NCBI GenBank assembly: GCA_003255025.1
Contig: QANY01002360.1
Location: forward strand, 558,001-622,000
Direction: 5' to 3'
Length of the DNA stretch: 64,000 bases
Source of the DNA: Datisca glomerata
Taxonomy: Eukaryota > Streptophyta > Magnoliopsida > Cucurbitales > Datiscaceae
Below, one piece after another: positions 4,965 through 50,869 of the stretch. The translations under genes were made by a program, and so were the position numbers. Position 1 is the stretch's first letter; each line of letters starts with the position of its first letter. Below the pieces are notes generated by a model. The model was not told the DNA's origin and ran no database searches. It was given only the letters and a program-made list of their open reading frames with translations.

Positions 4965-4989
4965 ATCACCCACTTGCCCTAAAGCAAAT

Positions 4990-13612: not shown

Positions 13613-13613
13613 C

Positions 13614-15014
13614 ATCCTCGATTTCTTTTCTTTGAAGATTCGAACCTGATTTAGCATTAGATTTCGTGTTCAACTCATTTTGAGCCACCACTTCCTCGCA
13701 AATATCTATTTTATTATGGGAACGACTAGAGTATTTAGTTGGCATGTCACTTGAGAGCCACTGGAAAGAAATTGATGAGGAGAATTCAGATGAAGGCCCA
13801 TTGTCGATAGACATTCTCCCATGTAGAGAAGTAGAAAGAACAGCTTCTTTCTGGTCCATCTTCCAAGATTTTCGTAGCCAAGCAGTTAATACTCGCTTTG
13901 CACCAGCTGAAATTAATAAATACGGATCCTCGGTGTTCCCTGAGTCAGGTAAGTTTGTCGGTTTCTTTTATCAGAAGCAACATTTATATCTGATGCAATT
14001 ATGTGCATCTTCGAGATGGAGCATATAGATCTCACGGCAGATCCCCCAACATGTTCCCCAAGCAAATTTGAAGAAGACCAATTCTCTATACCAGGAGTGT
14101 ACCTATGTTTACCATCAGAAAATGGCACGCTGAGTAAGAATATAATATTAATAGCCATTTTCCTTACAAGAAATGCAAAGGGAAAACTTCTGTCTTCTTT
14201 AAAATAAAAACTCCCATTCAATTAGCCATTATTCTTCCAAGAATACCAGAAATAAACTATCAGTGACATACCTTGTCAATCTCACAGTTCCATCTTCACA
14301 ACCAGTTGCAATCCAACTAGAGATGGCATGGTTCTGATCAGCTGTCAGTTTGTTGTCTTCAGATACGAAACATAATGAATGCAGCTCTCTTCCATGAAAT
14401 TGCATGTGCATATTAAGGGGAAATATCTTCCTTTCGTTGTCTCTTACCCAAAGTCTATGAACATATATTTTCTCGTCCTAAAGTGGAAAATGTAGAAAAA
14501 CCATAAACATCGCAGGTAATTGAAAAACTGAAAAGTGGATGAGGCATGATGGAAATAAAACACCACTCTGTTTTTCTATTCCCTTTTACAATCTTTATTT
14601 GATTATAAAATTGAGTGAGAGAAGTTCTGAGGAATGGAGGAGACCTTTACATAAGCAAAACAATTTTTCAGCTCTGGTACATCACCAAGATAATAAGTAT
14701 GAGGTCTGCGCCATCCACCACAATGTATTTGCACAACCTGCTCCACAGTGAACCGTTTGAAACCAGAAAGGAAAACATGTGCAAATATTTGTATCAATCA
14801 AAGGGAGGGAGGGAGGGAGGGAGCAAACCTTTGCCTCGGTAACCAGGTTCCATACAATGAAATCGGCCGATGCAAAGCCAGCTGCGTACTTATTGCTTGC
14901 CAAACCATGAGTATAATTTCTATCAGCAGAAACAGTCAGAATCAAACTCAATTCTTTCACTTGTCTCATCCCTATAAATTCCAAAATTTGGCGGTTTCTG
15001 TCATATTCCATATG
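13614..15014 (-). pseudogene. WDR6: Decayed 3' part of WDR6-like copy 1 (exons 12-15)
   Basis: After the TGA at 15017-15015, the - strand copy still contains the rest of exon 12 (to 14829), exon 13 (14737-14645), exon 14 (14477-14272) and part of exon 15 (from 14102). All are nearly identical to the + strand copy at 35022-36415. Exon 15 carries a 2-base insertion ('ag' at about 13952-13953) that shifts the frame. At 13613 the gene similarity ends in the middle of exon 15, so exons 16-20 are absent. This part cannot make the normal C-terminus. Confidence 0.88.
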
Positions 15015-18000
15015 TCATATGCACCCATCTCCTCCAGTCTGGATAACAAAAAAAAATTATACTGATCATTAACTCTATTATCGGCGTGAAACTTAGCTCA
15101 TGACTGTGGCAGTTCCCAGTGGAAGAGGATTCTTTTCGGCATTCTATTATTGTCAGCGAGTATGGATGGCGTGAGAATGGCAGGGAAGGTGGGAGGATGG
15201 CTAGAGGGTCTCACAGAAGTCCCTGGAAATTCATTTGTGTAAGGTATACATCATTTCTCTTCTTTTTGTAAATTTCATGTCAGAAACTATTCTAGGATTA
15301 AGTTCTAGGAAGTTTGTTGGATTGCTTAGTCTCCTCTTTGTCTTCATCCTCCACGCCTTTATGATCTTTAAGGGCTCATAATAAACCAATTTCTCATCTT
15401 CTTTGCTCGTTGAGTTCTCAAAGCTCTTTGCAGTTAGATTTCTTTAGAAACCTTAACGAAAGGGGGAATTCTTAACCTCTCTTCGTTACTGCCTATTTTG
15501 GAGGGTATAGCTATGTCTCCCACTTCTGTAGATCCTAGGACATGGATTATAGATTCCCTTGGGGTTCTCTAGTAAATCCTCATTTGGTACTCCCCTGGCG
15601 GTTACTTTAATATGATTTGGAAGGCTAAGGTTCCAAGGAAATCCTTCTCTTTGCTTGGTGCTTTTCCCATATACAGATTAACACGTGTGATGTGGTACAA
15701 TAGAGTTTTCCTTCTTTGTTTTCCATCCCCTCATTGATGCGTGGCTCAGCAGTGGAAGATATGGATCATCTGTATCCCACTGTCCGTTTTCTGTCTTGCT
15801 TTGGAAAAGTGTTCTGGAAAGTGTGTTGATATTTCTTGGTGTTCCCGGCTGAAATTTGTCTGGGTAATTATCATGGAAAGAAAGAGAACTCTGTGATCCT
15901 CTGCGGCTCGAGCTCTTTTTTGGTCTGACTGGAAGGAAAGGAATCTGAGCTTTTTTTAGGACAAGTCAGACGTTAGACTAATTATTTGTTTTAACCTGTT
16001 TTTTAAGCTTGCCTGTATCATATTCATGGCACTCCTTTTTTTTTTTTTTTGCTTCCAATTGTTTAACTTATGGGTTGTCTGTTTTTTTACGTTGAGCAGG
16101 GTTTCTTGTCCCTTTCCATTGTGAATATTTTCTTTCAATGCAAAATTTGTTTCCTATAAAAAATAGAAAAGAAAAAGGCCAATAAACTCTATTAACATCA
16201 CCCAGAACACACATATAGGTTGTCTGTTTTTTTTACGTTGAGCAGGATTTCTTGTTCCCTTTCCATTGTGAATATTTTCTTTCAATGCAAAATTTGTTTC
16301 CTATAAAAAATAGAAAAGAAAAAGGACAATAAACTCTATTAACATCACCCAGAACACACATATTAGACAATTACCCAAACAAAGTAATCATGTTACCCGT
16401 CATGACATTTTGGTAACGCTACATTCTTTTTTTTATAGGAAACAAAAATTGTATTAATAAAAAGATAGGTACAATCTTTAGTTCGGAGGATAAGCCATCC
16501 TAGCCAAAATCAAAAGATAGAGTCAATCTATACAAAGAGTCAACCAGTCAGAATTAATAAAATATTTAGGAATATCCTTAAACCATTTAGAAGTAGACAC
16601 CCACAAAGCAACCCAAAAATGTATCTTATCTCACAAAAGGTCAATATCCGTTGAAACATCTTCAAAAAATCTCTTATTCTGTTCTAACCAAACGCCCCAT
16701 AGGATTTCCATGGGTCAATAAGGCCAATAATGTTAATCCTAGAGATGTCAGATTCCTATATTTTGGTTTTTTATCAGTAAATTTCATAAACAAACAGCTG
16801 TAGGACTAATCACCAGCATTTCAACAAAATGAAGAATGGTAAGGACAATTGTTTCGGTCAGAGATAATCATATAATGCCAACTAAACATGTGGAAAAGTG
16901 GAGCATCGAGCACCCATGTAGTACGATGATGGCAGCTTAAGATGTGTATTTAGGAAGTTACTGGAACAATTTTTCTAGAACTATTGTAATTTGTACTCAT
17001 GCCAGTAACAGTGACAGTAATCATCATTGTTTCTCCTATGACTGAGAACGAATAGGACATCAATTGATTTCTTTGGCTATCGCCAGTAAAAAATATAGGT
17101 TCTTAGAGCATAACAAAAAATCACTTGAGGGCGATCTGAGCAATACCGAGCGGATTTCTGTTCGATTTGAGTTTAATCTGACTACTGCAATACTTGAGAC
17201 AGTGGATATTCCATGAGCTCCTTTAAAAAACCTGACTGGAGAAATCTTTACTCTTGACCCAGCTGAGGCATCTACTAATACGTCATTTGATAGAGGGAAT
17301 ACAACAAGATTACCGCGAAGATCACCACACACCAGCATCTGGAAGAATTTACAGCAAAATGTGCATTGAGTCATGAAGTAGACAGAATAAAAAACTTATC
17401 GAGTTACCCATCAAAAAAGAAAAATATATTGAGACCAAGAAGAGGCTTCACGAGACCGTATTTTCATTCTGTACTGCTAGTTATAACACATTAAAAAATG
17501 TTAAAAAATTCTATCTCCCATGCATCTTTGAAAATATACTTTATTTCATCTCCCCTGGAAAATTTTACAAAATTTAGACTGGGACGTGCTCATGGAACAT
17601 ATAGGCTTGAGAATGCGGCAATTAAGGAGCGTAGGCTTGAGAATGACGATGGCAGAAAGTGCAGCAAGGGATGTGGAAATGGACAACATAGAAGTCAAGA
17701 AACACCATAAAAAACATAGAAGTCAAGAAATATGATAGCGGAAGGTACATCAAGTATGTGAATGTGAAGCACCATAAATATCATCACCTACTAACGGGCT
17801 GTGATATAAACGTACAACCACTGTAAGCTCATCAAATATCTTATTTATTATAATGAAGCAACTCAATCTTAAAGCCACTCACAGTTCTATATAAAAGTAG
17901 AAATGAAAGTTAAACCTCTTCCTCAAGAGATGCATCCAGACACATAATTCGCATCCCAAAACATGATGTGAATTCTGCTACAAGATACACATCATATCTT

Positions 18001-21000
18001 CTTGTAGTATCCTGAGGAGGAGAGGGTCCAAGATCACACAACCTCCACAGCTTCAACATTCCCCTAGGATCGGCAGTGAAGATATACCTATAAGATAAAT
18101 TAGAGATTTAAGATCATAAATTATCACTGAGTATATCTTGTACGACAAAGAAAATTTAGCCATCTATCAGCTGAAACTCTCCAGAGAGCTGATGCGGGCA
18201 TCTGCATATCCAAATGTAATCAAGCAAGAACGTAGAACTAAATCACCACCCAGTACTGCCTATATAACTGGTGGAGAAACCAAATGCACTGCCTCTTTCG
18301 CATTTATAACATAAAGGCTAATCCTATATTGTTGATGGTTTAAACATCAATCATAAACAATGATAATTCCAGAACCTGTAAGGTCACACACACAGCTAAA
18401 ACATGTATGGCCTAATAAAGACTTTGCAAATCATCGTTAAAAAAATTAGAAGACAAGGAATGGCCTTCACCTATGTCCCAGTGACTTGCACCAAAAGGTT
18501 CCTAAAAGCTGTCTCTCTAATTCAGCTGTCCAATTCCATGATATGGTAAGTTTAGGAGAACAAACATCAGTGATGATTTTAACGACCGTCATTTTTCCTC
18601 GACCATCTCCAACGGCGATCCAATCGTCAACATCAGAGGGAAGCTTGGATGGGCTTTGAGACGGCAAATCCATACACACAATCGGAACCTCTTCACTGGT
18701 GCGAACAAGTTCAGTCCATATCACATCCCCGGTATCAGATAATCTTGCATGGTACAGATAACCACGATTTGTAGCAACATATAGAGAAACTTCAGAAGTA
18801 AATCGCAGACAACGTACATATTCGCTTTTGCTGCAACCGGTAAGAAGAACCAATGATCCAATTAAATAAATGTGCAAAGTTATTGTAACAAAAGGAGTGA
18901 AACAGAAAGATAATGTATTTGTCTAATAATATGTACTGTCAATCAACCCTCGCATTGTCCTTCTTAGGAATAGAAAATTTCAGAATAAAAAAGTTGAAAA
19001 GATTAAGAAATTGTATGAAGTTGGAATATGAGTAGTGAGTGTTACCTGTCCATGAGTCCAATATGCCCCGAAGCATTTGGGATACTAGCAGTGAAAATCT
19101 CTTTTCTGTCATTGAATGCAGAAACCTCAGCGGGTTCATCATAATCACCATATAAAGATGCAGGCAGATGATGCACTTTAATTGCAGAGTCAAATCCCGC
19201 AGTAACAAGAAGCAAAGAGTCCGGATCATATAAACATCGCCATACACCTCTTCCTCTAAACAATAAACAAAACTGTCAGACTAGATTTCTGATTAACAAG
19301 TTAGAATCAGTAAATTAGATATTGGTAAGAAGATTAACATCACTAGATGCTTTCCGCTGATTTAATGTTAATAAGACATTTGAAGAATAGTAAACTAATT
19401 CGAAAGCTCAAATCACTAGCTCAAACTCGCTTACCATCAATAACATAAAGCTGCAAAAAATAATGGAACATTTATGGTATCGCTGAGCTGCCCCATTGTC
19501 AATGTTAAGTCAATTAAACACAAGCTTGACAAAAAAATGTAAAGCATACTTAATAAACACAGTCAACTAATCTATTTCCAAGAGCTTGTTAGTTCTCCAC
19601 ACTCCACACAAATTTGACCAGAGTTTCATCAGGCTTTTGGTTTTAGTGTTACTACAAAATACAAGTAGTCCTGGGATTGTAGCATTTTTCTTAACTCTTT
19701 CTAGTTTTTCTTTTCCCATATTGGGTGGGTGTGAGTTATTATGCCCAAATTCTATATCACAAGAATAGCTTTATTCTTAGAACGTATTGATATGACTCCA
19801 TAAGCGGGACCACCACCCCATAGCATGTTGCGACCAGAATCAGAACCCCATATTTATTCTAGAGGATCTCCTAATTATTCCAGAGCAACTAGAAGGAAAT
19901 TCTTTAACCAAAAAGAATTCAGTTCCGATGTGGGATACCTATCCTGAAGTTTTCGTTTTTTTACCGACAAAAACTCACGCTCGAAAATAAAAAAATATAT
20001 ATATATTTATTTTCGAACATGGGTTTTTCTAGTCCAAGTCCAAGTGTATCTTGTTTTTACTACTAATAACTTTCCTTAGTTAACAATAGCCGTAGTTTTG
20101 CCAATATTCGCGGTTCCTTACTTTTCTTTCTCCCTCATAGAGGAAATAAGATAATTAGATGGTATGCTATTTGTATATGTGCAATCGAACTGCTTCTAAC
20201 AACCTATGTAATCTGTTGTCATTTTGAATTAGACGATGCCAACAGCTAGTCACCAAAATCAACACTATTCTTCATTGTGAATGACCACTTCATCTATATT
20301 ATAAAGTGAATAAGCATAAAGTAAAGGATAAACCGAATATTATCTCCATTCTTGAATGTTCTGTAGTTCTTCTGTTTTGTTTTTTCTTGGTGGATTCCTT
20401 TTCCTCCATTCTTGTAATTTCTTCTCTATCAATAAAATTATATTTCTTAACAAAACACAAATTATCTCAGCTCTAAATCATTAAACAGGAAAAAGACAGG
20501 TATGCTGCAGCTTACATGTGCTCCTTGATGATTTTAATCTGTTTCCCATCCTGTCTCCAAGCACGACATGTACAATCCTCACCAGCAGTGATAATCAACT
20601 ATAATAATATCCAGGTGAAAACGTTTTGCGTCAATATGATATAAAAAGTCTTCTCTGACTTCTTTCTCTCTTCATTTGATTCCCGCATGGTTAGAATATA
20701 AGAACTATAAACGCAAATAGTGTGGCTTACTGAATCATAAATACAACAGTCCCAAACTCTAGCATTATGACCGAAAAGCACGACATTGTCCGCGGGATCA
20801 CCATAATCTTTCCTTTCTATGTTAAGTGTCCAAATACGAGCACTGCAGCAAAGAAAACTATTATAAGGAAACTGATTCTGTAAACACTAAGCGATAGAGC
20901 AGATAAGAATTAAGAGACACATTCACCTACGATCATCAGAAACAGAAACCAATTTGGATCCATCGGAGGACCAAGCTATGCGAAAAATTGAACCCTCATG

Positions 21001-22355
21001 TCCAGCAAGCCTACATATATGAACAGCCCCATACTGAAGATGGTGAAGCAGGAAATTATTACTCGTTCGAACATGGTCTTCGGTTACATTTGTTAATGGA
21101 GCAAAAGCATCTTCTCGTACTACTTTCCAAACAATAATCTGCGAAAAGTCAAAACTGGCCATGATACTTGGAGATTGTATGAGAACCACCAAACCCAAAA
21201 TTCAAAGCATGCTCGAAATGCCACAGTCTAATCAAGAAACGCTGATCAGCATGATATACAAAAATCAAACTTATGTCTACTTTTTGTCCCCAAAAAAAGT
21301 AGGAGAACATAAGTCAGAACCTTAACAACGGATGAGGTAAGGGAATATCACATATGAAATCCTAAACTATAAATAGAAGGATGCAGCAAAAGGAAATGAT
21401 AAATGGGGGGAAGATTCTTCTAAAGACAAAGATTAGGCACCTCATTAAAAATAGTACCAGATGCAATACGGAGAGCTTCAAACTCATCACCCCATAATCG
21501 CATTGAGTAGAGAAGGCACCTCTCTTCAGTGGAAAATAAGAACAAGCCGAGTCAGAAAAGATAGGAAATTCAGAAGAAGAAGAAAATAATAAATACGCAA
21601 CTGAATATCAAAGTTCGACACTTCATCATTATGACCTGGAGATTTAACTTCAAGAAGAATAATGGATTCTGAAATATCCCAGATATGAATAGAATTGTCA
21701 CTGCAACCTATGGCAAGAAAACGATTTTCTTCGGACGAAGAAGCTCCAAAATTGTTCTGCAATCAAATAACACAAAGTTAGCATCAAAGCAAATGAGAAG
21801 AATATAATTCAAGGCCTATAATAAGCAATGCAACGAGATAAAGTTAAGAAATACTACACCTTCAAGAAGCATACGTCCAGCACCCAATGACTAAACTTTG
21901 GCAAAGAATACAGTTGGATCAAATTCACAGATTCTTCAGCAACCATTCCAATGCATAAACTATAAAGCTTAACTCTTCTCTCTCCGAAAACAGCAAGTTT
22001 GAAAACGACCTCAGTTGAAGAAGATGATGTTTCGGCTGAATTGCCCGAGCTAGAAACGATACCATGCACGCGAATCCCATCAAAAATTTGAAACGACCGT
22101 ATCATTCTCATCGATTCTAAGTCATACAAGAGCATTTGAGAGCCAGAACCTGTATTTCGAACCACAATGACAGATTACTCTGTGAAACAACCACAAACTA
22201 AAAAAAGGAAGGAAAAAAAAAAACAAGAAGACTTCACCAGCGAGGAGAAGGGGGAGAGGGGAGAGATGTGAAGGTAAATGGAGAAAACAGAGGGCTGAAA
22301 TTTCTCCAAGATACTGTCCGGTATGCAGACGCCACTCAGTGAGCTTCTCGGCCAT
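15015..22355 (-). CDS. WDR6: WDR6/TRM734-like WD40 protein, copy 1, N-terminal half ending at a premature TGA
   Basis: This is a homologue of WDR6 (yeast Trm734/Rtt10), the WD40 partner of the FTSJ1/Trm7 2'-O-methyltransferase that modifies tRNA position 34. I place exons at 22355-22238, 22149-21860, 21756-21597, 21523-21441, 21138-20927, 20842-20731, 20598-20516, 19255-19046, 18830-18471, 18087-17916, 17338-17147 and 15038-15015. All junctions are GT-AG and all phases agree. The start is the ATG of MAEKLTEW, followed by '[16 protein letters not shown]'. A further in-frame ATG 54 bases upstream lies in a tandemly duplicated segment and is less likely. The reading frame is open for 671 codons and has WD repeats such as '[10 protein letters not shown]', '[23 protein letters not shown]' and '[11 protein letters not shown]'. 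It stops at TGA at 15017-15015, where relatives encode Cys in 'DGCIC'. Intron 11 is 2.1 kb and holds LINE debris. Whether the half protein is made is unknown. Confidence 0.82.
15105..16165 (+). mobile_element. LINE C fragment in intron 11 of WDR6-like copy 1
   Basis: The + strand, antisense to the host gene, encodes broken pieces of a plant LINE ORF2 C-terminus. These are a trailing RT segment, then the zf-RVT region ('[11 protein letters not shown]', '..CVAQQWK', '[19 protein letters not shown]') and a 3' tail ending in 'tttcctataaaaaatag'. The same fragment is present at 33870-34935 in the other WDR6-like copy, so it inserted before the gene was duplicated. Confidence 0.8.
16073..16363. repeat. 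145-bp tandem duplication in intron 11 of copy 1
   Basis: The block starting 'ggttgtctgttttttt' at 16073 is repeated from 16218 with only a few differences. It covers the LINE C tail and some flank. The other WDR6-like copy has the block only once (about 33830-33970), so this duplication arose after the two gene copies separated. Confidence 0.9.
16432..16745 (-). mobile_element. LINE D 3' fragment in intron 11 of copy 1
   Basis: The - strand reads '[13 protein letters not shown]', '[21 protein letters not shown]' and '[11 protein letters not shown]', the usual end of a plant LINE ORF2 zinc-binding region. A 3' tail 'tttttgtttcctataaaaaaaa' follows at 16432-16450. The same fragment lies at 33440-33755 in copy 2. 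It is another insertion older than the gene duplication. Confidence 0.78.
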
Positions 22356-22369
22356 GGCTGCTGCTGGTA

Positions 22370-22529
22370 GCGTTACGAGAGTAAACTCTTCATGTGTTAA
22401 AAGTCGCACGGGGAGTCTCTGTGAATTGGACTAAAAACGAGACGGAGGTGCGTTACGAGAGTAAACTCTTCATGTGTTAAAAGTCGCACGGGGAGTCTCT
22501 GTGAATTGGACTAAAAACGAGACGGAGGT
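22370..22529. repeat. 80-bp perfect tandem duplication upstream of WDR6-like copy 1
   Basis: Two head-to-tail 80-base units (22370-22449 and 22450-22529) are identical over their length. They lie just upstream of the chosen start codon at 22355, in the 5' leader or proximal promoter. Each carries an ATG that is in frame (22409) or lies upstream of the main start, so the duplication could alter translation initiation. Confidence 0.95.
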
Positions 22530-22625
22530 TTTAGCAATCAACGGATAGGTGGCCGTTAGCTCTTCTTACAAAGCCCGTTCGAAAGAGGCCCAGACGACAA
22601 AAGGAATAAAAGAGACTAAAATAAC

Positions 22626-22629
22626 AAAA
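22626..22629 (-). terminator. Pol III T-run after tRNA-Phe
   Basis: The - strand reads TTTT one base after the tRNA end, the usual RNA polymerase III stop. Confidence 0.75.
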
Positions 22630-22630
22630 T

Positions 22631-22654
22631 GCGGTGAGCGTGGATCGAACACGC

Positions 22655-22697
<43 letters not shown>

Positions 22698-22702
22698 CCC
22701 GC
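22631..22702 (-). tRNA. tRNA-Phe-GAA: tRNA-Phe (GAA)
   Basis: The reverse strand folds as a complete 72-base cloverleaf. The acceptor is GCGGGGA with TCACCGC, including the G5-A68 mismatch that I recall as typical of plant cytosolic tRNA-Phe. The D stem is GCTC/GAGC, the anticodon stem-loop is TCAGA-CTGAAGA-TCTGA with anticodon GAA, and the T arm is GCGTG-TTCGATC-CACGC. It contains an A box (TAGCTCAGTTGG) and a B box (GTTCGATCC). There is no intron. It lies about 275 bases upstream of the WDR6-like start and points the same way. It appears functional. Confidence 0.97.
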
Positions 22703-23784
22703 TTGACACTCCCACTAATTTGTTTTTAAAGTAATTAATCTTTCTTTCCAGAGTTGTACTATGCTAAATTATTTAAGAAAGGCCTTGTTTGAAAAATGTC
22801 TTCACTCGTGAGAGCAGAATGAGGTTATGAAACAAATATATAAAGACATGTGCCAAAATATTATTTATTATGGTTAGAAATACTAAGGATGAGTTTTGCA
22901 GTGTTTTTGTTTTAAAGTCTTTTAATATACTAAAAAACTATATTTTAAAATAAAATTTTATTTCATGAATGTCTTAACTCGACATGCATTTTGATAGTTG
23001 GAAGTACTTCTCCAAGACACATACTCAAATATTTTATAAAATGCTTCTAAAATATAAAGTAATATGGCTCAAAGTATATACAAGTGTTTCAACTAAAAAT
23101 AAATATAAAGTAAATAGGTGATATATAATTTAACAAAAATATTTCTGAATACAACCACTCTTTCAAACACATTATAAGGTCTATTGATTTATATTAACAA
23201 ACTATTACAACACATGCACAATGGTAAATATCCGTATTTAAAATTAAGTTGCAACTAACTCAAACTCAATTAGGGGAAACAAGTAATGAATCAAACAAAT
23301 ACCCCTTAATTGCTCTTTACAAATTTTTCAAATACACATAGGGTTATGTATAAAAAAAAAGAGAGTGGATCTACATTAACATGCTAATAAGTGATCGAGA
23401 CGAGTCAAAGTGATTGTGTGAGAAGCTAAATAAAATTAACGTCATTGCATAATATTTATTTTATCGTTAAGTTAGATTTTCAACAAGATTATATAAATAA
23501 GAACATAAAACAGAACCACATACAATTTGAATGAACTCTGTGCATTGAAAATGAGCTTTCAAGACATGTGATCGAGCAAATAATAAATTCTCAATCTCTT
23601 GTTTTATTTACAACAATTTTGGTATCAAAATGAATGGTAGAAAAATCTTATAAAGTTGCGATGTAAATAGAAAGATTTTTTCGAGAAAAAATGGAAAGAG
23701 ATTTAAATTAATAAAGTAAAGAGGCCAAGAAGTAAATTCACTTTATATGATCATATACTTTAAAAATGCTTGCTAAGATAGGTA
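22703..23784. other. AT-rich intergenic DNA between the two tRNA-like genes
   Basis: About 1.1 kb with no open frame, repeat or transposon signature that I can support. Confidence 0.5.
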
Positions 23785-23857
23785 GGGAGTGTAGCTCAAA
23801 CGGTAGAGTGCTCGCTTTGCTTGCGAGAGGTATGGGGTTTGACACCCTGCATCTCTA
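23785..23857 (+). tRNA. Degenerate tRNA-Ala (TGC), likely pseudogene
   Basis: The D arm (GCTC..GAGT), the anticodon stem CTCGC/GCGAG and the anticodon TGC in a loop TTTGCTT match plant tRNA-Ala. The acceptor stem, however, reads GGGAGTG against CATCTCT with several mispairs (G1-T72, A4-C69). The B box has decayed to GTTTGACAC, and the T at position 37 replaces the usual purine. Transcription and folding are doubtful. No T-run follows directly; one lies about 13 bases on. Confidence 0.7.
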
Positions 23858-23948
23858 GTTTAGGATTTGATTTTTTGCTTTGGTTTTTTTTTTCACCAAA
23901 TCCTCAAGATGGACCTTGATCCAATTAAAGAACATATTTAAAGATGTA

Positions 23949-24330
23949 GGGGTGTTCATGGTTCGGTCAGCTTTTTTGTAAAAAATCAACCTGAAACTTT
24001 GGTTCGACAATAAAACTGAATCAAACTGTTTAAGTCAAAAGAATCGAACCATGGGTTTTGGTTCGGTTCGATTTTATATGAAATGATATATATGATATAA
24101 AATCAAAGTGTATATATATGTGTGTGTATAATAAAAATAATAAGAATTAACATTTCAGTTCAGTTCGATTCGAAAGCTACCAAAATTTCGAACCGAACCG
24201 AAATTTCAATTATCTCATTTTCTCGAACTGAAACGAACCAAGCACATTACCATAAATCATAACTGAACCAGTCATTTTTTGTTCGATTAGGCTTTGTTGA
24301 TTCGGGACAATTTTGAACACACATACTAAT
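23949..24330. mobile_element. MITE-like element rich in GGTTCGGTT motifs
   Basis: The segment opens with 'AGGGGTGTTCATGGTTCGG' and closes with 'TTTTGAACACACAT', so the ends are short imperfect inverted repeats (GTGTTCA/TGAACAC). Inside, 'ggttcggttcg' and 'cgaaccgaaccg' face each other and would fold into a long hairpin. A start of TAGGGGTGTTCA is common in hAT-type MITEs. I could not find a clean 8-base target duplication. Confidence 0.45.
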
Positions 24331-25032
24331 ACGAAACATTGCCGTAAACATAAAAGTAATTAGTTCTCCACCAATTATTATACAAATGGAAATTATAGTA
24401 CTTAGGAACTTTAAAATTGCCACTTAAAAGAATGTTAGTTCTTTTAAATAATTGCGTTAATGTCAAAATTTTCACTTTATTCTTTGTAACCGTTTATGGC
24501 AAAGACTATTTTATCATTTTATCCATGCAACGTTCTGTCTTCTTTTTTGCTATTTTGAAGTTTTCCGGGCAGTTATAACATCAGAGTGGTTGGTTAAAAT
24601 TTACTAATCTTTTCTTTATATGAAATTTGAGATCTAATAACATTTAATTATATCTATGAATGAAAAAAATCTATTCTAGTAACATTTGATTATTTATTCA
24701 TCTTAAATTCATTATTTTCTAAAGATTTATATATAGTTAGACGGAGACGGTTTTGAGTTTTTGATATGTTTATGTTTTGTTCAAAATTTAAAATATAGAT
24801 TTTACTCATACATCATTAATTAAATATAAGTCATTTGTTTCATATATACAAGAACGACCTTATTTGGGATTAGGGGTAGATCAGGCATATTGATATCTCT
24901 CAAATTGAATCTAATCAAATATTGACATTTTACTAATTATTTATATTTTCTAACATTTATCTAATCGGAGATAGTAATTTGTATAGATGTCTAAAAATCC
25001 CTTATACAAAATACTTCCAAAATTTATAATTA
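24331..25032. other. AT-rich intergenic DNA
   Basis: No gene, RNA or transposon signature is visible in this 0.7 kb. Confidence 0.5.
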
Positions 25033-25558
25033 CTAACTCAGTGTTATGCGCGTTGCATGTTTTATTTTTAATTAGTATCAATATCATTTACAAATAAAAA
25101 TTTGAATATTTATAATATAATCTTAATGAAATACGAAAAAAGTAGATAAAAAAATATTTTATTGTACTGACACTTTTATGTATACTATTTTTTGTCAAAT
25201 AATCTTTTTAATCATTTTTAATACACAAAGAACAATCAGAAAAACTAAACGGAGATAAATGTATGAATCCATTGTGAAAATGAATGAATGCAAAAGTTAT
25301 TACGTGAATGAAACTACATTTCAAAAGTCACTTCTTATTCCATTACATTTCAAAAGACATATTTAAAAATGTCACTTTCAATTCATATTTCAAAAGTCAC
25401 TTTTCAATTGATACATTTTGACACATCTTTATTTGATGAGCAAATAAAAATACGTAAAATTATACTTTGAAGGGCAATTTTGGATTAGTAAAAATGAAGA
25501 CGGACAGAATTGTCTAAAAAAATTCATTCCCTACTTTCACTTTTTAATATATTATAGA
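25033..25558 (-). mobile_element. Small non-autonomous Helitron
   Basis: On the - strand the element starts TCTATAATATATTAAAAAGTG after an A. It ends with a hairpin (ATGC-loop-GCAT at 25058-25046), nine bases of spacer and TTAG followed by T. This is the Helitron layout (5' TC, 3' hairpin plus CTRR, insertion between A and T), with the last motif decayed from CTAG to TTAG. It is 526 bp and carries no open frame. Confidence 0.65.
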
Positions 25559-26689: not shown

Positions 26690-26815
26690 ATGGTTTCAGT
26701 TTTTTCTCTCGACTCTGAGATGCGCTCTGTCCGACCCTTAAGTATGTCTCTCTTTCCACTCTTTTTAAGTGGTTTGTCCTTTCTACAAAAACGTTTGGTG
26801 TCTAGTTTGGAGTAA

Positions 26816-28165
26816 ATGATAGAAAAATGGAGGCAACTCTCTCTCGCGGAAGAGGAAAACAACATAGTGGAGATACTAAGTGAGATAGTGGCAACAGAAA
26901 TCGACCCATCCCGATGTCTTCTCGGTAAGGTCATTTCCCCACACTCTATCATTAACTCTACATTTAGAAGCATGATGTTACAAGTTTGGAACCCTCGGAG
27001 GAAAGTTTCCATTAGAGTTGTAGGTGAAGCTCTGTTTTTAATCGAATTTTATGAGGCTCTAGACAATAAGAAATTGCTTCAAAATGAACCATGGCACTTT
27101 GATAAGGCCTTGGTAGTGATTGAGAATATACGTGGGTTTTGCCAACCCCTACGGACACCCCTCAACATTTTTAAAATATGAGCTAGGGTCTTTAATCTTC
27201 TGGTGTTGTGTATGACTTCAAAAATGACAGAAATAATAGGGAAGAATTTGGGTGATTTCATAGTAGTTGATGAACACTTAGAAGGGGCTTTATGGTCAAT
27301 ATCTACGTATAAGAGTTCGGTTAAACACCTCCAAACCACTGTGAAAGGGAATGAAAATCAGAATTGATAACGATGAAGACATTTTGTGGGTTAATTTCCA
27401 ATATGAACGATTATCAGATTTTTGTTATTTGTGTGGCTGCATCTATCATGTGGAAAAGGGATGTTCGAAGTGCCTCGGGGAGGAAGAGCAATCTATTAAA
27501 TTAAACCCTCAATTCGGGTCTTGGCTCAGGGCTCAATCCCAGCGGAGGTTTAAGGAAGCAAAGGGGGAAGAAGAACGGAGCTCCTCAGACATGGAGAACA
27601 ACACAAAGGACTTTCGCAGAAAATTAGAAGTCTTTGTTACCCAAAAGGGGAGCTTATTCTTGGAGGAGAGTGGATTTGGCCGATGGAGATAATAGAAGAG
27701 AGGTTGTTACGAATAAGTTCAAAAATAGGAAGGAGACGTACATAGTGGCATACTATCCAATACGGAGGAGGTGGGAGTGAAGGAAATGTTTCCCAACTTG
27801 AGGAAGCCACGTCAGGCCCAAATGATTGTAGGATGATGAAAGGTGTGGAGGTAGTTTCAAAAAAGAAAGGAAAAGAAGTCTACGAAGAAAGCCAAAAGAA
27901 TTCTGGGAACTCCAAGGACCCGTCTTCAGTAATTAGGCTGGACGGACTGAATGTGACTGTTAGGCCGATGACTGGAGAGGTTTCTTTGGGATTTAAATCA
28001 GAAGTGGATCAAAGGATGAAGATACAAGACATGGATCATTTGGGAACCAACTCAGAGAATGGTCAAATAAAAATAAAGAAATGCACTTTGAGAAGTATCC
28101 AGAACCAGAAGAAAGAGAAGCTTTCTTCTAGCCCCCCTCAGAAGAAGGAGTTCCATAAGAAATGA
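26816..28165 (+). pseudogene. LINE B ORF1 (DUF4283-like plus CCHC zinc knuckle)
   Basis: The first 121 codons (26816-27181) resemble the DUF4283 RNA-binding domain found in plant LINE ORF1 ('WRQLSLAEEE', 'CLLGKVISPHSI', 'LLQNEPWHFDKALVV'). After a TGA the frame resumes at 27351 with 'ILWVNFQYERLSDFCYLCG' and a C-x2-C-x4-H-x4-C knuckle (C-Y-L-C..H..C). Further basic, low-complexity stretches follow (27833-28165). It would coat LINE RNA, but it is broken here by stops. Confidence 0.82.
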
Positions 28166-28279
28166 GCAGCACAAGATCTGTCGTTATCTAAGAAATGGAA
28201 GAAAATTTGTATGTACATATTTCTTCCCAAGATTTCACCCCAGTAACGCGTCTCCTCGATGGAGCTTGCTGCTCGCAGT

Positions 28280-31000
28280 GAAAATTTTGAGCTGGAATGC
28301 TCGGGTGCTTTGGGAACTGATGGGCATTCAAATCGTTGGAGATGTTGATAGCCACCAAAGATCCCACAATGGTCTTCCTTCTGAAGACTAGGTGTTTTTC
28401 TAACAAAGGTAACGATTTACATTTTCATTTAGGTTTCGATTTCGTTTTTGTTGTTCCTAGCAAATGTCTTAGTGAGGGTCTGATAATTCTTTGGAAGAAC
28501 TCAATTGATCTGGAGATTATGTCCTATTTTAAAGGGCATATTGATTCTATTGTGGAGATGGGGGATGGGTTAAAGTGGAGATTTTTGGGTTTTTATGGAA
28601 ACCCAGATAAAAAGGAAAGATTTCATTCTTAGAGTTTGATACGTAGATTGGGGAGCCTATGTGATTTACCATGGTTTATTTGTAGAGATTTCAAAGAGAT
28701 TTTTAGATCAATCGAAGCAATTGAGGGTGTTTGTAGAGAGAAGAAATTGATGGATTACTTCCGAGAGGCTATTAACGGCTGTAATTTGATGGAGATTGGC
28801 TTCAAATGGCCTAAATTCACTTGGAATAATAGGAGATCAGGGAAAGCCAACATCCGGAAGGTCTTAGACAGGGGTTTCTGCTGCCAGAGGTGGAGATCTT
28901 ACTTTCATATGACTTTTGTCGAACACGATCGATACCTTTCCTCAAACCACAAAGCCCTCTTCTTCCGTCTGAGGCAAGCGGGGAGGGATAACAGGGCTAA
29001 TTTGTTCATGTAGATTTCATTTTGTGTCCATATTGGCAGAAGATGAGGAGTGTGAAGGTATCATTGGGGAAGCCTGGGAACAGGTAATGTTGGTATTACT
29101 GAGGTTCTTAGCCAGTATGCAGTAGCTTCGGGCCAAATTATTAACACTAACAAATTAGTTATAGCTTTCGGCCCGAACACTCCAGCCCATATACGTGATG
29201 TCTTTGATTCTACCCTCAACATAAACACGGGCCCATGCCTGAAGTCTTACTTGGATCTTCCAATTTTCCTGGACTATAGTGGGAAAAGTAAAGAAGCTTC
29301 TCATGCGCCAGCGAGAGATATAGTTCTCGGATGGAGGGAAAGAAGTTCTAATTAAAGTTGTTATTCAAGCGATACCTACTTAAGTAATGAGCTGTTTTAG
29401 AATCTCAAAGGGCCTGTGTAAGGAAATTGAAGTTGTCACTTCAAACGTCTGGTGATGTTTCTTTGATTTGGGACAAAAAAATGCACTGGTCTACCTGGAA
29501 AAAGCTGTATAAGCTGAAGGTGGAAGGGGGTTTGGGTTTTAAAGCTCTTGAGTTGTTTAACAAATCTCTATTTTTTAAGCAAGCTTGGCGACTGGTTCAA
29601 AACCTGAACAACTTACATGCTAGGATTTTTTAGGCTAAGTACTATCTAGGGTCTACTTTCTTGGAGGTGGAAGCTTCTCCATCTTCATCTTTTGTTTGGA
29701 AGAGCATTCTGTGGGGTAGAGACCTCCTTTAATTTAGCTTGAGATGGTAAATGGGCAATGGAAAATCAATCAAAGCTTTTCAGGAAAAATGGATTCCAAG
29801 GCCTTCTTCATTCAAGGTAATATCTTCCCATCCGGTCTCTTTCGAGGGTGTTTTAACGGCTGACTTTATTGATGAAAATGGTTGGAAAGAAGATTCTTTC
29901 TCACGTTTCTTTTTTCCTGATGATGTTGATCGGATTCTGTCCATCCCTCTCCCTATATCTGATTCTAATGCTTATCTGATAAATTCGGTCAATACTTGGT
30001 TAGAAGTGGGTACAAAGTGGTAGTTTCTAGTTTATCCTTGGAGGGTTTCTCGGTTTTGACATTAGTGGAGTGGTAGAAATTCTTCTGGAATCTAAAGCTC
30101 CCAAATAAGATCAAAATATTTGTATGGGGAGCAGCTTTAAATGCTCTTCCTTGCCTGAGTAATTTAGCTTGTAGAGGTATTAATATCTCAATTTCATGCA
30201 AGGTGTGTGGGAAGGAAGAATCTCTAGTGCATGCTCTATTCAAATTTTCTGTGGCTAAAGCTGTTTGTAGAGCCTCTTGCATTTTAGGGCTTCCTAAAAT
30301 GGCGGCTACCATGGATGTTTTTCTGGTTGTGAAACGTATTGTTCGACCTTCATATTTTTCTCATTTTATTACTTCATGTTGGTCGATTTGGCGGAACAGG
30401 AACGGTGTTAATAATGATCGAAGGACTGTCTCATGAGAAAGTATTATGTGCTGGGCAAATTCATTTTTAAATGGGTTTGAATCTTGTAATCAGGTCTTGG
30501 GGAAGGCTGCCACCCCCTGGTAGATTGGTTGTTCGGCATTGACGTCCTCCTCTGGTTGACTATTTCAAGCTCAATGTGGATGCCACATGCGGGTATTCCT
30601 TTGGCACATGTTTGAGCATTGTCATTCACAATGCATCAGGAGAAGTTATAGTGGCTATGGTGAAAAGATGACCTCGTAATCTTTATGTTGAAGCTGCCGA
30701 GGCTTATGCTTTATTGGAAAGTCTTTTGTTGGCCTCATTTATAGGTGTTCCTATCCATGCAGCGGAATCTAATTCTCTTAGCACGGTCAGAGCTTGCCAA
30801 GGTGTTTCAAATCTTATTGTGGAGACGTATGCTTTCATTAACGATTATATATCTTTGTTATCGACTTTTGATTGCTCCATTTGTCATATTCCTAGGAATG
30901 AGATTGACTAAATTAGTCATGTTGGAGGCTAACTATTCAGTTTGGCTTGAGGATGCTTCCCCTTCTATTTGAGATGTTTTGTTTGAGGATTCTCATTGGT
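28280..31000 (+). pseudogene. LINE B ORF2 remnant (endonuclease, zf-RVT, RNase H)
   Basis: ORF2 starts with 'ILSWNAR' near 28285. Endonuclease pieces at 28336-29013 include 'FLLKTRCFSNK' and 'PWFICRDFKEIF', where the conserved GDFNE has decayed. After the deletion junction come 'SYLDLPIFLD', 'DKKMHWSTWKKLYKLKVEGGLGFKAL' (29427-29633), the zinc-binding 'CKVCGKEESLVHALF' (30195-30240) and the RNase H start 'DYFKLNVDAT'. A TGA after 'MVKR' and others block the frame. Confidence 0.85.
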
Positions 31001-31050
31001 GTTCTTAATGAAAGATGTTTAGTTTCCAAAAAAAGAATCATGGTTTCTGC

Positions 31051-31841
31051 ACACATATGGTACTATGTTGTACGTGTATATAAATATATATTATTGAAAG
31101 TTTTAATATTAATAATAAACTTGACGTTGGATATTCTCATTGACATAAGAATCTTGACTCAATTTCTTAAGATGAAGTATGGATTATTAACCATATTGTA
31201 TTTAAGAACAAACAAAATTATAATAACAATCAATAAGTTATGCTGACATACAAAATAGTATGTAATTATATAGTATATAATCTTATACTTTGAGTATAAT
31301 AATATACTATATAACAAAAAGTACGAGAAATCTGTAGAATATAGAAAAGTATACTGGTTTGCCTTTAGAAAACAGAGAAAAACAGAGGGACAAACTGCTA
31401 ACTCGTTAAATAGATATACTAAGTCAGTTTCATGAAAAAAAAAAAAAACTAAAAAAAACTCAGAAAAATCTCAGAAAAATCAGGCATAAACTTTAGATTA
31501 CGCCTAAATCACAAGCACAAAAAACTTACCTGTAATATACTGTTATATAAAAAAATGAAAGCTGAAATTTTAGTTTACAATCGCGATTTTTCCTGAACGC
31601 TACGTTGTTAGATGTAGATTCACGTCAATTTGCTTCGATTTAGTTTTGTGATGAAGATTTTAAAGATTTTCTCTTAGATCTTGAAGCGTCGCCGCGTGAG
31701 AGAATTATGGGCTAGGATTTTGATTGTTCGTTGAAATGAGACGTGAGAGAGGTAGTTTTCCTTTTATTATTAAGGATAATTTCGGCAGTTTACTATTATT
31801 ATTAGATTTTCATGCAGGGTTCTAGTTAATTCGACTATTTG
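31051..31841 (+). repeat. Segmental repeat flanking LINE B, shared with 45827-46711
   Basis: The DNA following the LINE B tail aligns with the DNA following LINE B copy 2, including 'agattcacgtcaatttgcttcg' and the stretch around 'cttagatcttgaagcgtcg'. Shared flank means that the two loci are copies of one insertion rather than two insertions. The alignment ends at 31842-31845 (TGCA), where WDR6-like exon 2 begins. Confidence 0.85.
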
Positions 31842-33439
31842 TGCATTGGAATGGTTACTGAAGAATCTGTGAATTTGATCCAGCTGTATTCTTTGCCAAA
31901 GTTTAGTCATTGGGTGCTGGACTTATGCTTCTTGAAGGTGTAGTATTTCTTAACTTTATCTCGTTGCATTGCTTATTATAGGCCTTGAATTATATTCTTC
32001 TCATTTGCTTTGATGCTAACTTTGTGTTATTTGATTGCAGAACAATTTTGGAGCTTCTTCGTCCGAAGAAAATCGTTTTCTTGCCATAGGTTGCAGTGAC
32101 AATTCTATTCATATCTGGGATATTTCAGAATCCATTATTCTTCTTGAAGTTAAATCTCCAGGTCATAATGATGAAGTGTCGAACTTTGATATTCAGTTGC
32201 GTATTTATTATTTTCTTCTTCTTCTGAATTTCCTATCTTTTCTGACTCGGCTTGTTCTTATTTTCCACTGAAGAGAGGTGCCTTCTCTACTCACTGCGAT
32301 TATGGGGTGATTGAGTTGCTTCATTATAATAAACAAGATATTTGATGAGCTTACAGTGGTTGTACGTTTATATCACAGCCCGTTAGTAGGTGATGATATT
32401 TATGGTGCTTCACATTCACATACTTGATGTACCTTCCGCTATCATATTTCTTGACTTCTATGTTTTTTATGGTGTTTCTTGACTTCTATGTTGTCCATTT
32501 CCACATCCCTTGCTGCACTTTCTGCCATCGTCATTCTCAAGCCTACGCTCCTTAATTGCCGCATTCTCAAGCCTATATGTTCCATGAACACGTCCCAGTC
32601 TAAATTTTGTAAAATTTTCCAGGGGAGAGATGAAATAAAGTATATTTTCAAAGATGCATGGGAGATAGAATTTTTTAACATTTTTTAATATGTTATAACT
32701 AGCAGTACAGAATGAAAATACGGTCTCATGAAGCCTCTTCTTGGTCTCAATATATTTTTCTTTTTTGATGGGTAACTCGATAAGTTTTTTATTCTGTCTA
32801 CTTCATGACTCAATGCACATTTTGCTGTAAATTCTTCCAGATGCTGGTGTGTGGTGATCTTCGCGGTAATCTTGTTGTATTCCCTCTATCAAATGATGTA
32901 TTAGTAGACGCCTCAGCTGGGTCAAGAGTAAAGATTTCTCCAGTCAGGTTTTTTAAAGGAGCTCATGGAATATCCACTGTCTCAAGTATTGCAGTAGCCA
33001 GATTAAACTCAAATCGAACAGAAATACGCTCGGTATTGCTCAGATCGCCCTCAAGTGATTTTTTGTTATGCTCTAACAACCTATATTTTTTACTGGCGAT
33101 AGCCAAAGAAATCAATTGATGTCCTATTCGTTCTCAGTCATAGGAGAAACAATGATGATCACTGTCACTGTTACTGGCATGAGTACAAATTACAATAGTT
33201 CTAGAAAAATTGTTCCAGTAACTTCCTAAATACACATCTTAAGCTGCCATCATCGTACTACATGGGTGCTCGTTGCTCCACTTTTCCACATGTTTAGTTG
33301 GCATTATATGATTGTCTCTAACTGTAACACAATTGTCCTTACCATTCTTCATTTTGTTGAAATGCTGGTGATTAGTCCTACAGGTGTTTGTTTATGAAAT
33401 TTACTGATAAAAAACCAAAATATAGGAATCTGACATCTC

Positions 33440-33755
33440 TAGGATTAACATTATTGGTCTTATTGACCCATGGAAATCCTATGGGGCGTTTGGTTAGAAC
33501 AGAATAAGAGATTTTTTGAAGATGTTTCAACGGATATTGACCTTTTGTGAGATAAGATACATTTTTGGGTTGCTTTGTGGGTGTCTACTTCTAAATGGTT
33601 TAAGGATATTCCTAAATATTTTATTAATTCTGACTGGTTGACTCTTTGTATAGATTGACTCTATCTTTTGATTTTGGCTAGGATGGCTTATCCTCCGAAC
33701 TAAAGATTGTACCTATCTTTTTATTAATACAATTTTTGTTTCCTATAAAAAAAAG
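33440..33755 (+). mobile_element. LINE D 3' fragment in intron 11 of copy 2
   Basis: Mirror image of 16432-16745, with the same '[12 protein letters not shown]' region and the 'tttcctataaaaaaaag' tail. Confidence 0.78.
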
Positions 33756-33869
33756 AATGTAGCGTTACCAAAATGTCATGACGGGTAACATGATTACTTT
33801 GTTTGGGTAATTGTCTAATATGTGTGTTCTGGGTGATGTTAATAGAGTTTATTGTCCTTTTTCTTTTCT

Positions 33870-34935
33870 ATTTTTTATAGGAAACAAATTTTGCGTTGAA
33901 AGAAAATATTCACAATGGAAAGGGACAAGAAACCCTGCTCAACGTAAAAAAACAGACGACCCATAAGTTATACAATTGGAAGCAAAAAAAAAAAAAAGGA
34001 GGGCCATGAAAGTGATACAGGCAAGCTTAAAAAACAGGTTAAAACAAATAATTAGTCTAACGTCTGACTTGTCCTAAAAAAAGCTCAGATTCCTTTCCTT
34101 CCAGTCAGACCAAAAAAGAGCTCGAGCCGCAGAGGATCACAGAGTTCTCTTTCTTTCCATGATAATTACCCAGACAAATTTCAGCCGGGAACACCAAGAA
34201 ATATCAACACACTTTCCAGAACACTTTTCCAAAGCAAGACAGAAAACGGACAGTGGGATACAGATGATCCATATCTTCCACTGCTGAGCCACGCATCAAT
34301 GAGGGGATGGAAAACAAAGAAGGAAAACTCTATTGTACCACATCACACGTGTTAATCTGTATATGGGAAAAGCACCAAGCAAAGAGAAGGATTTCCTTGG
34401 AACCTTAGCCTTCCAAATCATATTAAAATAACTGCCAGGGGAGTACCAAATGAGGATTTACTAGAGAACCCCAAGGGAATCTATAATCCATGTCCTAGGA
34501 TCTACAGAAGTGGGAGACATAGCTATACCCTCCAAAATAGGCAGTAACGAAGAGAGGTTAAGAATTCCCCCTTTCGTTAAGGTTTCTAAAGAAATCTAAC
34601 TGCAAAGAGCTTTGAGAACTCAACGAGCAAAGAAGATGAGAAATTGGTTTATTATGAGCCCTTAAAGATCATAAAGGCGTGGAGGATGAAGACAAAGAGG
34701 AGACTAAGCAATCCAACAAACTTCCTAGAACTTAATCCTAGAATAGTTTCTGACATGAAATTTACAAAAAGAAGAGAAATGATGTATACCTTACACAAAT
34801 GAATTTCCAGGGACTTCTGTGAGACCCTCTAGCCATCCTCCCACCTTCCCTGCCATTCTCACGCCATCCATACTCGCTGACAATAATAGAATGCCGAAAA
34901 GAATCCTCTTCCACTGGGAACTGCCACAGTCATGA
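33870..34935 (-). mobile_element. LINE C fragment in intron 11 of copy 2
   Basis: Mirror image of 15105-16165, without the 145-bp duplication seen in copy 1. Confidence 0.8.
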
Positions 34936-35021
34936 GCTAAGTTTCACGCCGATAATAGAGTTAATGATCAGTATAATTTTTTTTTGTTATCCAGACTGGA
35001 GGAGATGGGTGCATATGACAT

Positions 35022-38000
35022 ATGGAATATGACAGAAACCGCCAAATTTTGGAATTTATAGGGATGAGACAAGTGAAAGAATTGAGTTTGATTCTGACTG
35101 TTTCTGCTGATAGAAATTATACTCATGGTTCGGCAAGCAATAAGTACGCAGCTGGCTTTGCATCGGCCGATTTCATTGTATGGAACCTGGTTACCGAGGC
35201 AAAGGTTTGCTCCCTCCCTCCCTCCCTCCCTCCCTCTGATTGATACAAATATTTTGCACAAGTTTTCCTTTCAAACGGTTCACTGTGGAGCAGGTTGTGC
35301 AAATACATTGTGGTGGATGGCGCAGACCTCATACTTATTATCTTGGTGATGTACCAGAGCTGAAAAATTGTTTTGCTTATGTAAAGGTCTCCTCCATTCC
35401 TCAGAACTTCTCTCACTCAATTTTATAATCAAATAAAGATTGTAAAAGGGAATAGAAAAACAGAGTGGTGTTTTATTTCCATCATGCCTCATCCACTTTT
35501 CAGTTTTTCAATTACCTGCGATGTTTATGGTTTTTCTACATTTTCCACTTTAGGACGAGAAAATATATGTTCATAGACTTTGGGTAAGAGACAACGAAAG
35601 GAAGATATTTCCCCTTAATATGCACATGCAATTTCATGGAAGAGAGCTGCATTCATTATGTTTCGTATCTGAAGACAACAAACTGACAGCTGATCAGAAC
35701 CATGCCATCTCTAGTTGGATTGCAACTGGTTGTGAAGATGGAACTGTGAGATTGACAAGGTATGTCACTGATAGTTTATTTCTGGTATTCTTGGAAGAAT
35801 AATGGCTAATTGAATGGGAGTTTTTATTTTAAAGAAGACAGAAGTTTTCCCTTTGCATTTCTTGTAAGGAAAATGGCTATTAATATTATATTCATACTCA
35901 GCGTGCCATTTTCTGATGGTAAACATAGGTACACTCCTGGTATAGAGAATTGGTCTTCTTCAAATTTGCTTGGGGAACATGTTGGGGGATCTGCCGTGAG
36001 ATCTATATGCTCCATCTCGAAGATGCACATAATTGCATCAGATATGAATGTTGCTTCTGATGAAAGAAACCGACAAATACCTGACTCAGGGAACACCGAG
36101 GATCCGTATTTATTAATTTCAGCTGGTGCAAAGCGAGTATTAACTGCTTGGCTACGAAAATCTAGGAAGATGGACCAGAAAGAAGCTGTTCTTGCTACTT
36201 CTCTACATGGGAGAATGTCTATCGACAATAGGCCTTCATCTGAATTCTCCTCATCAATTTCTTTCCAGTGGCTCTCAAGTGACATGCCAACTAAATACTC
36301 TAGTCGTTCCCATAAAAAAATAGATATTTGCGAGAAAGTGGTGGCTCAAAATGAGTTGAACATGAAATCTAATGCTAAATCAGGTTTGAATCTTCAAAGA
36401 AAGGAAATTGAGGATATTGAGTCTTGCTCTGCGGATAAGAGTGAAGATGACTGGAGATACTTGGCTGTTACTGCCTTTCTTGTTAATTATTGCGGGTCTA
36501 GGTAGGTACATATGGCATAAGATTCAGTCCTTTTGATCTAGTTTTTACTTTTTGAATTACTGAAGAAATTTTCTTCTCCTTTGTTTGCCTTCCAGGATTA
36601 GCGTATGTTTTGTTGTTGTTGCATGTTCAGATGCCACACTTGTGCTTCGTGCACTCATTCTGCCTTACCGTTTATGGTAATTATCAGAATTAAAAAAAAA
36701 TGGTTTGTCGGTTTTTTTCTCAGTCCATTTCCACCTGATGCTGTAACTGTCTTTCATTGATCTTATTGCAGGTTTGATGTTGCTTTGTTGGTTCCTTTAT
36801 CATCACCAATTTTGGCATTACAGCATGTTGTTATCCCTAAACATCTTAGTTCTGAAGGTCTGTTGCTCCGATTTTCAACTATAGAGAAATTGGCATATGT
36901 TGTCAACATTCCTCCTTCAGATAACTTGTTCATGTGCTTTACATTATCTTAAAAAAAATCATTCCGTATTCCATGGAATTTGGTTCAATGATGAGTGGTA
37001 CATACAAGCACTTCAAGTGCATTGGTAATTAATGAACTTATTCATGTTCTTATGCTTGGTGTGCCAATTATTTTTCATGTTCCCATAGGATGTGCTTTGC
37101 CTTCTATAATAATAGATTTTATTAGCAGGGGACATTCAGAATGGAAGTGTTTATCTGGTGATTGGTGGAGCCACTGACGGAAGTATTACCTTCTGGAATT
37201 TGACTGGAAATGTTGAAGCATTTATGCAGCAGTTGACTAATTTGCATCCTGATAAGCTCATTAGTTATCAGAAACGGCCTCGCACTGGAAGAGGAAGCCA
37301 AGGTGGCAGATGGTGGAGATCATTGAGTAGTAATATAACGAAAAGAAGACCTGTCAGTGTTTCAGTCCCTATAAAATTTGGAGAGGCAGGCAACTTAAAT
37401 ACTACTGATCGAGTTTCATCTGAAAGCTCACTAATAGTAAATAGTCATGAAATTGGCAAAACATCTTGTTCCCTGCCTATTTATACTGATAATGAGCCAG
37501 AAGTGAATTCTGACGATTCCACCTTCGAGATATGTGAAATAAAGTCTATACACATTTTCAATAATGTTCACCAATCTGGCGTAAATTGTATCCATGTTTC
37601 GGTTATAAAGAACCGTCAAAGTAGTGGAAGTTTTTTCACGTACCATGTGATAAGTGGTGGGGATGATCAAGCGCTTCACAGTATTGTATTTGATTTTTTG
37701 CGACTACCAGCAAGCTGCAGTTCTGAATCAATGACGCCAGGATTCATAAATTCAACAACTAAGCTCGAAAGTACCAATGAATTTATTTTGCTTAGTAAAA
37801 ACCTCAACTTGAAATATATGTTTAGATTCCTGTGCTGTCAAAGTATCGCATCAGCTCACAGCTCTGCTGTAAAAGGTGAATACTCTGTTTCAATTTGTTT
37901 CCTTATCAGTAGTACCCTTTCAAAAAGGATTTCTCTTATGAACACTTTGGCTTCTAAGTATATAACTAGTTAATCTTAAACTGATATATCAAATTTTTCT

Positions 38001-38461
38001 TCTTGTGGAAAATTTCAGTCAAATCCTTACTTCACAGTTCCATGAGTTTTGATAGATTTATTGAGAACTGTCTGGAAATATTATGAACTTTTGCAAACAT
38101 ATGTATTGAACTCTGTTTTTTTATTCGTGAAGGTGTTTGGACAGATGGTATGTGGGTGTTTTCTACTGGTCTTGATCAGCGAATCAGGTGTTGGCACCTT
38201 GTGGAGCACAATAAGCTTTTTGAATATGATAACTTGATCATTAGTGTGCCCGAGCCAGAGTCATTGGACGCTAGAGCCTGTGGCAGGTAGCAAAACATCT
38301 GATTACAAGCACTTTAGTCAGTTTAAAAGGGTAACTTTGCAACATGAGTATGATCTTAGTTTCTATGTCTTATCTTCTCCAGGAACCATTACCAAATTGC
38401 TGTAGCTGGAAGAGGTATGCAAATAGTTGAGTTCTCTGCAGTCTGTGGCATAGACACATGA
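35022..38461 (+). CDS. WDR6: WDR6/TRM734-like WD40 protein, copy 2, C-terminal half open from an internal ATG
   Basis: From the ATG at 35022 (MEYDRNRQ, two codons after the TGA), exons 35022-35204, 35294-35386, 35554-35759, 35929-36501, 36596-36676, 36772-36857, 37129-37875, 38133-38286 and 38383-38461 join with GT-AG introns and consistent phases. They give 733 codons with no stop. The product matches the C-terminal half of plant WDR6: 'CGGWRRPHTYYLGDVPELKNCFAYVK', 'SWIATGCEDGTVRLTR', 'LISAGAKRVLTAWL', 'VIGGATDGSITFWNLTG' and 'WVFSTGLDQRIRCWHL'. The natural stop is the TGA at 38459-38461. The annotation as a gene depends on whether this ATG is used. The sequence upstream is a broken copy of the N-terminal half with no recognised promoter. 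Confidence 0.75.
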
Positions 38462-45826: not shown

Positions 45827-46023
45827 ATCATGGTTTCTGCACATATATGGTACTATATTATATGCGTATATACATATATATTATTGAAAGTTTTAATATT
45901 ACTAATAAACTTGACGTTGGACATTCTCATTGACATAAGAAACTTGACTCAATTTCTTCCTTCGTCTACCTGCATGATAAAGATGAATTATGGATTATTA
46001 ACTATATTGTATTTAAGAACAAA

Positions 46024-46080
<57 letters not shown>

Positions 46081-50862: not shown

Positions 50863-50869
50863 AAAAAGA

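Follow-up and report, generated by a model that had tools for sequence, protein, structure and literature searches.

Does a gene that survives as two open halves on opposite strands represent one gene becoming two, or a gene that has recently been lost? The question is raised by a 64,000-nt stretch of contig QANY01002360.1 of Datisca glomerata (hereafter the window), which contains a WDR6/TRM734-type gene in two copies, inverted relative to each other and arranged head to head. WDR6 is a widely conserved tRNA-modification helper gene, and WDR6/Trm734 is the partner of Trm7/FTSJ1 for tRNA Gm34. The original prediction interpreted the pair as gene fission by duplication and complementary degeneration, by which one protein becomes two separate polypeptides. 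Our analysis suggests instead, with a probability of roughly 60%, a young unitary pseudogene of WDR6 that was split when an inversion duplicated sequence at its breakpoints; the locus is most likely the D. glomerata WDR6/TRM734 orthologue, very recently lost.

Structure of the two copies and the search for a third

The gene was modeled in 20 exons, guided by homologues, and its introns begin with GT and end with AG. Copy 1, on the minus strand (13614..22355), comprises exons 1-15 as judged from the homology of relatives, with exon 15 cut. Its reading frame starts at the ATG at 22355 and remains open for 658 codons before a TGA; further downstream, comparison of the copies places a frameshifting 2-nt insertion in exon 15 (13952..13953, minus strand). 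Copy 2, on the plus strand (31838..38461), retains a fragment of exon 2, then exon 3 and the opening 38 nt of exon 4, and also exons 11-20; the sequence between that point in exon 4 and intron 10 is absent. Its C-terminal half (35022..38461, plus strand) covers exons 12-20: an ATG at 35022, two codons past the TGA of copy 2, begins a run of 733 open codons that reaches the natural stop. Wherever both copies exist they share about 98-99% identity, with 45 substitutions in 4572 nt (~1%).

This arrangement agrees in outline with the original prediction, which had described two opposite WDR6-like copies, and its details needed slight correction. Copy 1 is indeed open to the TGA and then frameshifted and cut, although over 658 codons rather than the 671 claimed; the loss of exon 1, most of exon 2 and exons 4-10 from copy 2 is borne out except for the 38 nt of exon 4, and the 733-codon frame was correctly described. 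When read through, the protein reaches up to 62% identity with plant WDR6 over 100% of its length. A single uninterrupted protein is not encoded, given the TGA in both copies, the frameshift and the deletion. Copy 1 also carries a ~147-nt tandem duplication in intron 11 (16066-16363), which copy 2 does not have, and an exact 80-bp tandem duplication (22370-22529) lies directly upstream of its ATG.

Searching the genome for an intact WDR6 had been proposed as a possible refutation of fission, and none was found. Protein searches against the plant's own assembly (677,961,422 bases, 1358 contigs), with all first-look candidates scored (23/23 and 11/11), gave 17 matches for the N half, 14 at the WDR6 locus and three in WD40 stretches with 30-35% identity, while the 14 matches for the C half were all at the locus. 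Thus, neither half revealed another WDR6 copy, intact or allelic, in the 678-Mb assembly, a negative result that covers the assembled sequence alone. Because the locus matches tile both halves, an intact paralogue or an allelic contig should have appeared. In the protein databases, queried with the whole protein and with each half, no entry exceeded about 67% identity among the matches listed, so D. glomerata's own proteins seem to be absent from those databases.

The common stop codon and the middle propeller

The TGA is codon 8 of exon 12 and codon 659 of the gene. Exon 12 of copy 1 (14829..15038, minus strand) is 210 nt long and in frame, and its counterpart in copy 2 (34995..35204, plus strand) contains the same TGA together with the ATG of the C-terminal half. 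Cysteine occupies this column in 102 of the 102 full-length relatives compared, in contrast to the Datisca locus. Because the stop is common to both copies, it does not represent the complementary loss that the degeneration model envisaged; it is therefore either older than the duplication or was spread between the repeats by gene conversion. Its presence in both copies suggests that it arose before the duplication. Around exons 12-14, however, the copies are unusually alike: a 2000-nt interval there has 6 of the 40 block-B substitutions (p 0.0002 by shuffling). Gene conversion could therefore have moved the TGA across.

According to the textbook NMD rule, a stop located well before the next exon junction triggers decay, and this would apply to copy 1 because the exon 12/13 junction is still 186 nt away from its TGA. 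In copy 2, exon 12 contains two out-of-frame ATGs (35005 and 35015) upstream of the one that opens the C half. Both the NMD position and these upstream ATGs work against the two halves as products.

Two ways around the stop were considered and rejected. Splicing could bypass it, as skipping exon 12 would preserve the frame and in-frame AGs lie beyond the TGA at 150 and 204 nt into the exon; neither copy could then yield a full-length protein, and a bypass explains at most the ancestor. Similarly, readthrough would leave neither copy full length, and the context of the stop is TGACAT, not the strong readthrough motif TGACTA.

The predicted structure of a relative suggests a three-domain fold matching 6jp6_A, which may be a likeness with WDR6/Trm734; sequence searches of solved structures returned Trm734 among many general WD40 chains. 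In the model of relative P0130, the first propeller spans residues 20-370 and the matching cysteine is residue 658, located by counting from the conserved TGxDGCxC pattern, in a predicted strand at 656-663. The third propeller starts at about 774, a position transferred from a poorer first model (P0104; pLDDT 52) whose structure matches were used solely for this rough placing. Since the split falls after propeller 1 and before propeller 3, it lies inside the middle propeller, and in the relative's model the TGA cuts within a predicted strand rather than at a domain boundary. Gene fission usually, if not obligatorily, splits a protein at such a boundary.

Truncated plant WDR6 entries were examined as candidates for recurrent natural N-half isoforms, an idea that was discarded. 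Seven of the mapped entries (P0122, P0123, P0129, P0138, P0142, P0158 and P0184) end at or beside exon 11/intron 11, at reference residues 659-664. Others end at 731-736 (six), 1078-1087 (six), 538-541 (four) and 597-599 (three), and with ends at so many positions the entries seem to reflect intron retention of a generic kind or gene models that were split. In Ilex, the N and C parts are present as separate entries, P0129 and P0249.

Junctions and a candidate inversion

The two copies divide between them the surroundings of one gene: the 5' end, the 5' flank and a tRNA-Phe gene are on copy 1, whereas copy 2 has the 3' end, followed downstream by an LHCB2-like frame (named by eye). Flipping 13614-31837 on paper restores a single gene in collinear order, in which exons 2-15 occur twice, and inverted duplicates of otherwise single-copy DNA flank the segment. 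The complementarity of the halves follows from the way in which the flanks of a single rearranged locus are shared out, the 5' flank to copy 1 and the 3' flank to copy 2.

At the 3' end of copy 1 (13589..13614, minus strand), homology stops at 13614, and 8 nt beyond lies a 17-nt filler, AAATCTAATGCTAAATC (13605-13589), that repeats exon 15 sequence starting 59 nt away (13664). The deletion junction of copy 2, from exon 4 to intron 10 (32305..32315, plus strand), shows a GAT microhomology, and a TGCA microhomology marks the junction between exon 2 and a repeat block (31838..31845, plus strand). The filler and the microhomologies fit break repair. This repeat block, on the 5' side of copy 2 (28434..31845, plus strand), consists of a LINE-like element, recognized by eye, and about 0.7 kb more. 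It has a direct repeat, about 87% alike, at 40948-46700, and the pair brackets copy 2 and the LHCB2-like frame. As its two copies are 13% diverged, the repeat block is older than the gene duplication.

From the flank geometry and the junctions we infer an inversion of ~18 kb, one of whose breakpoints fell within the gene; it would have duplicated exons 2-15 at its ends and thereby split the gene, with staggered breaks and end joining as the probable route of duplication. During later drift, copy 2 would have lost exon 4 to intron 10 through a microhomology deletion, and copy 1 would have acquired the 2 nt in exon 15. The exon 2 junction would also arise from a tandem duplication spanning exon 2 through the repeat block and a later inversion, a less likely route because divergence is about 13% between the repeat blocks but about 1.5% between the gene copies.

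Comparable structures are known from Drosophila. PMC3355041 describes an inversion with a 7.1-kb inverted duplication, one copy of which has eroded to 2.7 kb, and in its cases 2h and 2q single-copy DNA is duplicated in inverted orientation at both segment ends, as at the WDR6 locus. One duplicate of 2h has eroded, and in 2q a gene was duplicated without its first exon, both likewise resembling the WDR6 locus (PMC3355041). The WDR6 locus differs from these cases in its small segment of ~18 kb, in its plant host and in that its un-inverted order is inferred.

Divergence and the weighing of explanations

The exons of the two copies differ at 21 of 1447 nt and the introns at 24 of 3125 nt, with exons the faster (Fisher p 0.036). 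Of the exon substitutions, one lies in the microhomology at the exon 2 junction and another in what is left of exon 4. The count of synonymous and nonsynonymous changes that had been recommended, run here between the copies, gives 7 and 14, respectively, where 72% nonsynonymous is expected under neutrality (p 0.63), and the divergence looks neutral-like. Nonsynonymous changes were polarised by eye from alignment columns, leaving out 7 of the 14 as ambiguous; five of the remaining seven lie on the half that would be dead under fission and two on the half that would be live (17181 in copy 1 and 14902 in copy 2), a weak lean towards fission from too few changes to count.

Against these signs of neutrality between the copies stand the intact conserved columns. 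Where the relatives are at least 95% conserved, departures number 2 among 169 N-half columns and 9 among 188 C-half columns, and all are mild, from which it follows that function persisted until recently or persists still. Among the 102 other relatives, 58 have an N-half count as high or higher, and one has a C-half count as high; with the threshold at 98% the C half departs at 2 of 147 columns (35/102 as high), and at 90% at 9 of 231 (24/102). A hidden age betrayed by damaged conserved sites was rejected, as the N half shows none and the C half is high at the 95% threshold alone, with mild changes.

How readily would both halves remain open by chance? In a neutral-decay simulation, the joint probability was 0.48 with substitutions only, 0.16 at the exon indel rate, 0.10 at the higher divergence and 0.03 at the whole-block indel rate. 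Chance preservation, which the original prediction had named as the main alternative, is therefore plausible, and two open halves are not improbable without selection.

A unitary pseudogene is a disabled single-locus gene without an intact copy. The WDR6 locus likewise is single, carries disabling lesions and has no intact copy in the assembly; unlike in a typical case, both halves are open, and these would be the unselected remnant of the ancestral frame after little time. Loss is unexpected because full-length WDR6 entries occur across many eudicot families. It is also conceivable, since yeasts differ in the effect of losing TRM734: PMC11170731 reports no obvious phenotype from this loss alone in S. 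cerevisiae and a growth defect in S. pombe. Counting against loss are the joint chance of just 0.03 at the whole-block indel rate, the five of seven polarised changes located where fission would permit them, and the assembly, which may be without an intact allele that exists. If the gene is lost, Gm34 on tRNA-Phe would be absent or made without WDR6, and the plant would offer a natural WDR6 null for studying the role of Gm34 on tRNA-Phe in plants and the tolerance of its loss. Among the matches listed in our search of the literature on Trm734/WDR6, gene fission and inversion breakpoints, no such case appeared by title or by the beginning of the abstract.

An intact allele on the other haplotype or in other members of the species, with the assembly displaying a null, rearranged one, is unlikely: the coding sequence is otherwise well conserved and the ~1% difference between copies is within usual plant heterozygosity, but the assembly matches tile both halves without any being an allelic copy elsewhere, and the TGA is in both copies. 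Fission in progress, in which copy 1 would supply propeller 1 and most of propeller 2 and copy 2 the rest, both joining Trm7 to methylate G34, appears decidedly unlikely; on this reading, the intragenic inversion would have turned one gene into two divergently transcribed genes whose products jointly complete one split central propeller. Fission draws on the open halves, the intact conserved columns, the five of seven polarised changes on the dispensable half and an assembly with no intact WDR6 left, which would also make it remarkable. Both halves would be needed, because Trm734 touches Trm7 through BPA and BPC, two of its three domains, as stated in PMC11170731. Opposed to fission are the stop, which on the relative's model falls in a predicted strand of propeller 2, its NMD-prone position, the overlapping upstream ATGs before the C-half ATG, the repeat block in place of the native 5' end of copy 2, and the neutral-like divergence. 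The claim of two selected polypeptides is consequently left unsupported: the flank geometry explains their complementarity, and exons diverge no slower than introns. Should both halves work, the locus would provide a natural split propeller and a gene fission so young that its breakpoints can still be read.

The monkey-king gene of Drosophila reportedly underwent complementary degeneration after duplication. Like the WDR6 locus, it is a gene split through duplication (PMC3395120); its expression is tabulated in that source, whereas the WDR6 locus is known from sequence alone and its stop is common to both copies, not complementary. Finally, a head-to-head misjoining of two haplotypes during assembly is very improbable. 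The copies are about 98.5% alike and a short N gap with poly-G flanks (47677-47692) indicates patched gaps in the window, but this gap is its sole N run, no N occurs at the junctions, and the templated filler and microhomologies resemble real break repair.

Other features of the window include the tRNA-Phe(GAA) gene (22630-22702, minus strand; Rfam), which shares its strand with copy 1 and lies 275 nt ahead of the WDR6 start. This tRNA is the substrate of the Trm7-WDR6 complex, and its position beside WDR6 is probably a coincidence; Rfam identified two tRNAs in the window and nothing else. A direct repeat with 85% identity (4573-4965 and 12624-13036) surrounds minus-strand frames that appear copia-like by eye, and a partly duplicated region at 48920-52829 contains a class III peroxidase-like frame, also named by eye.
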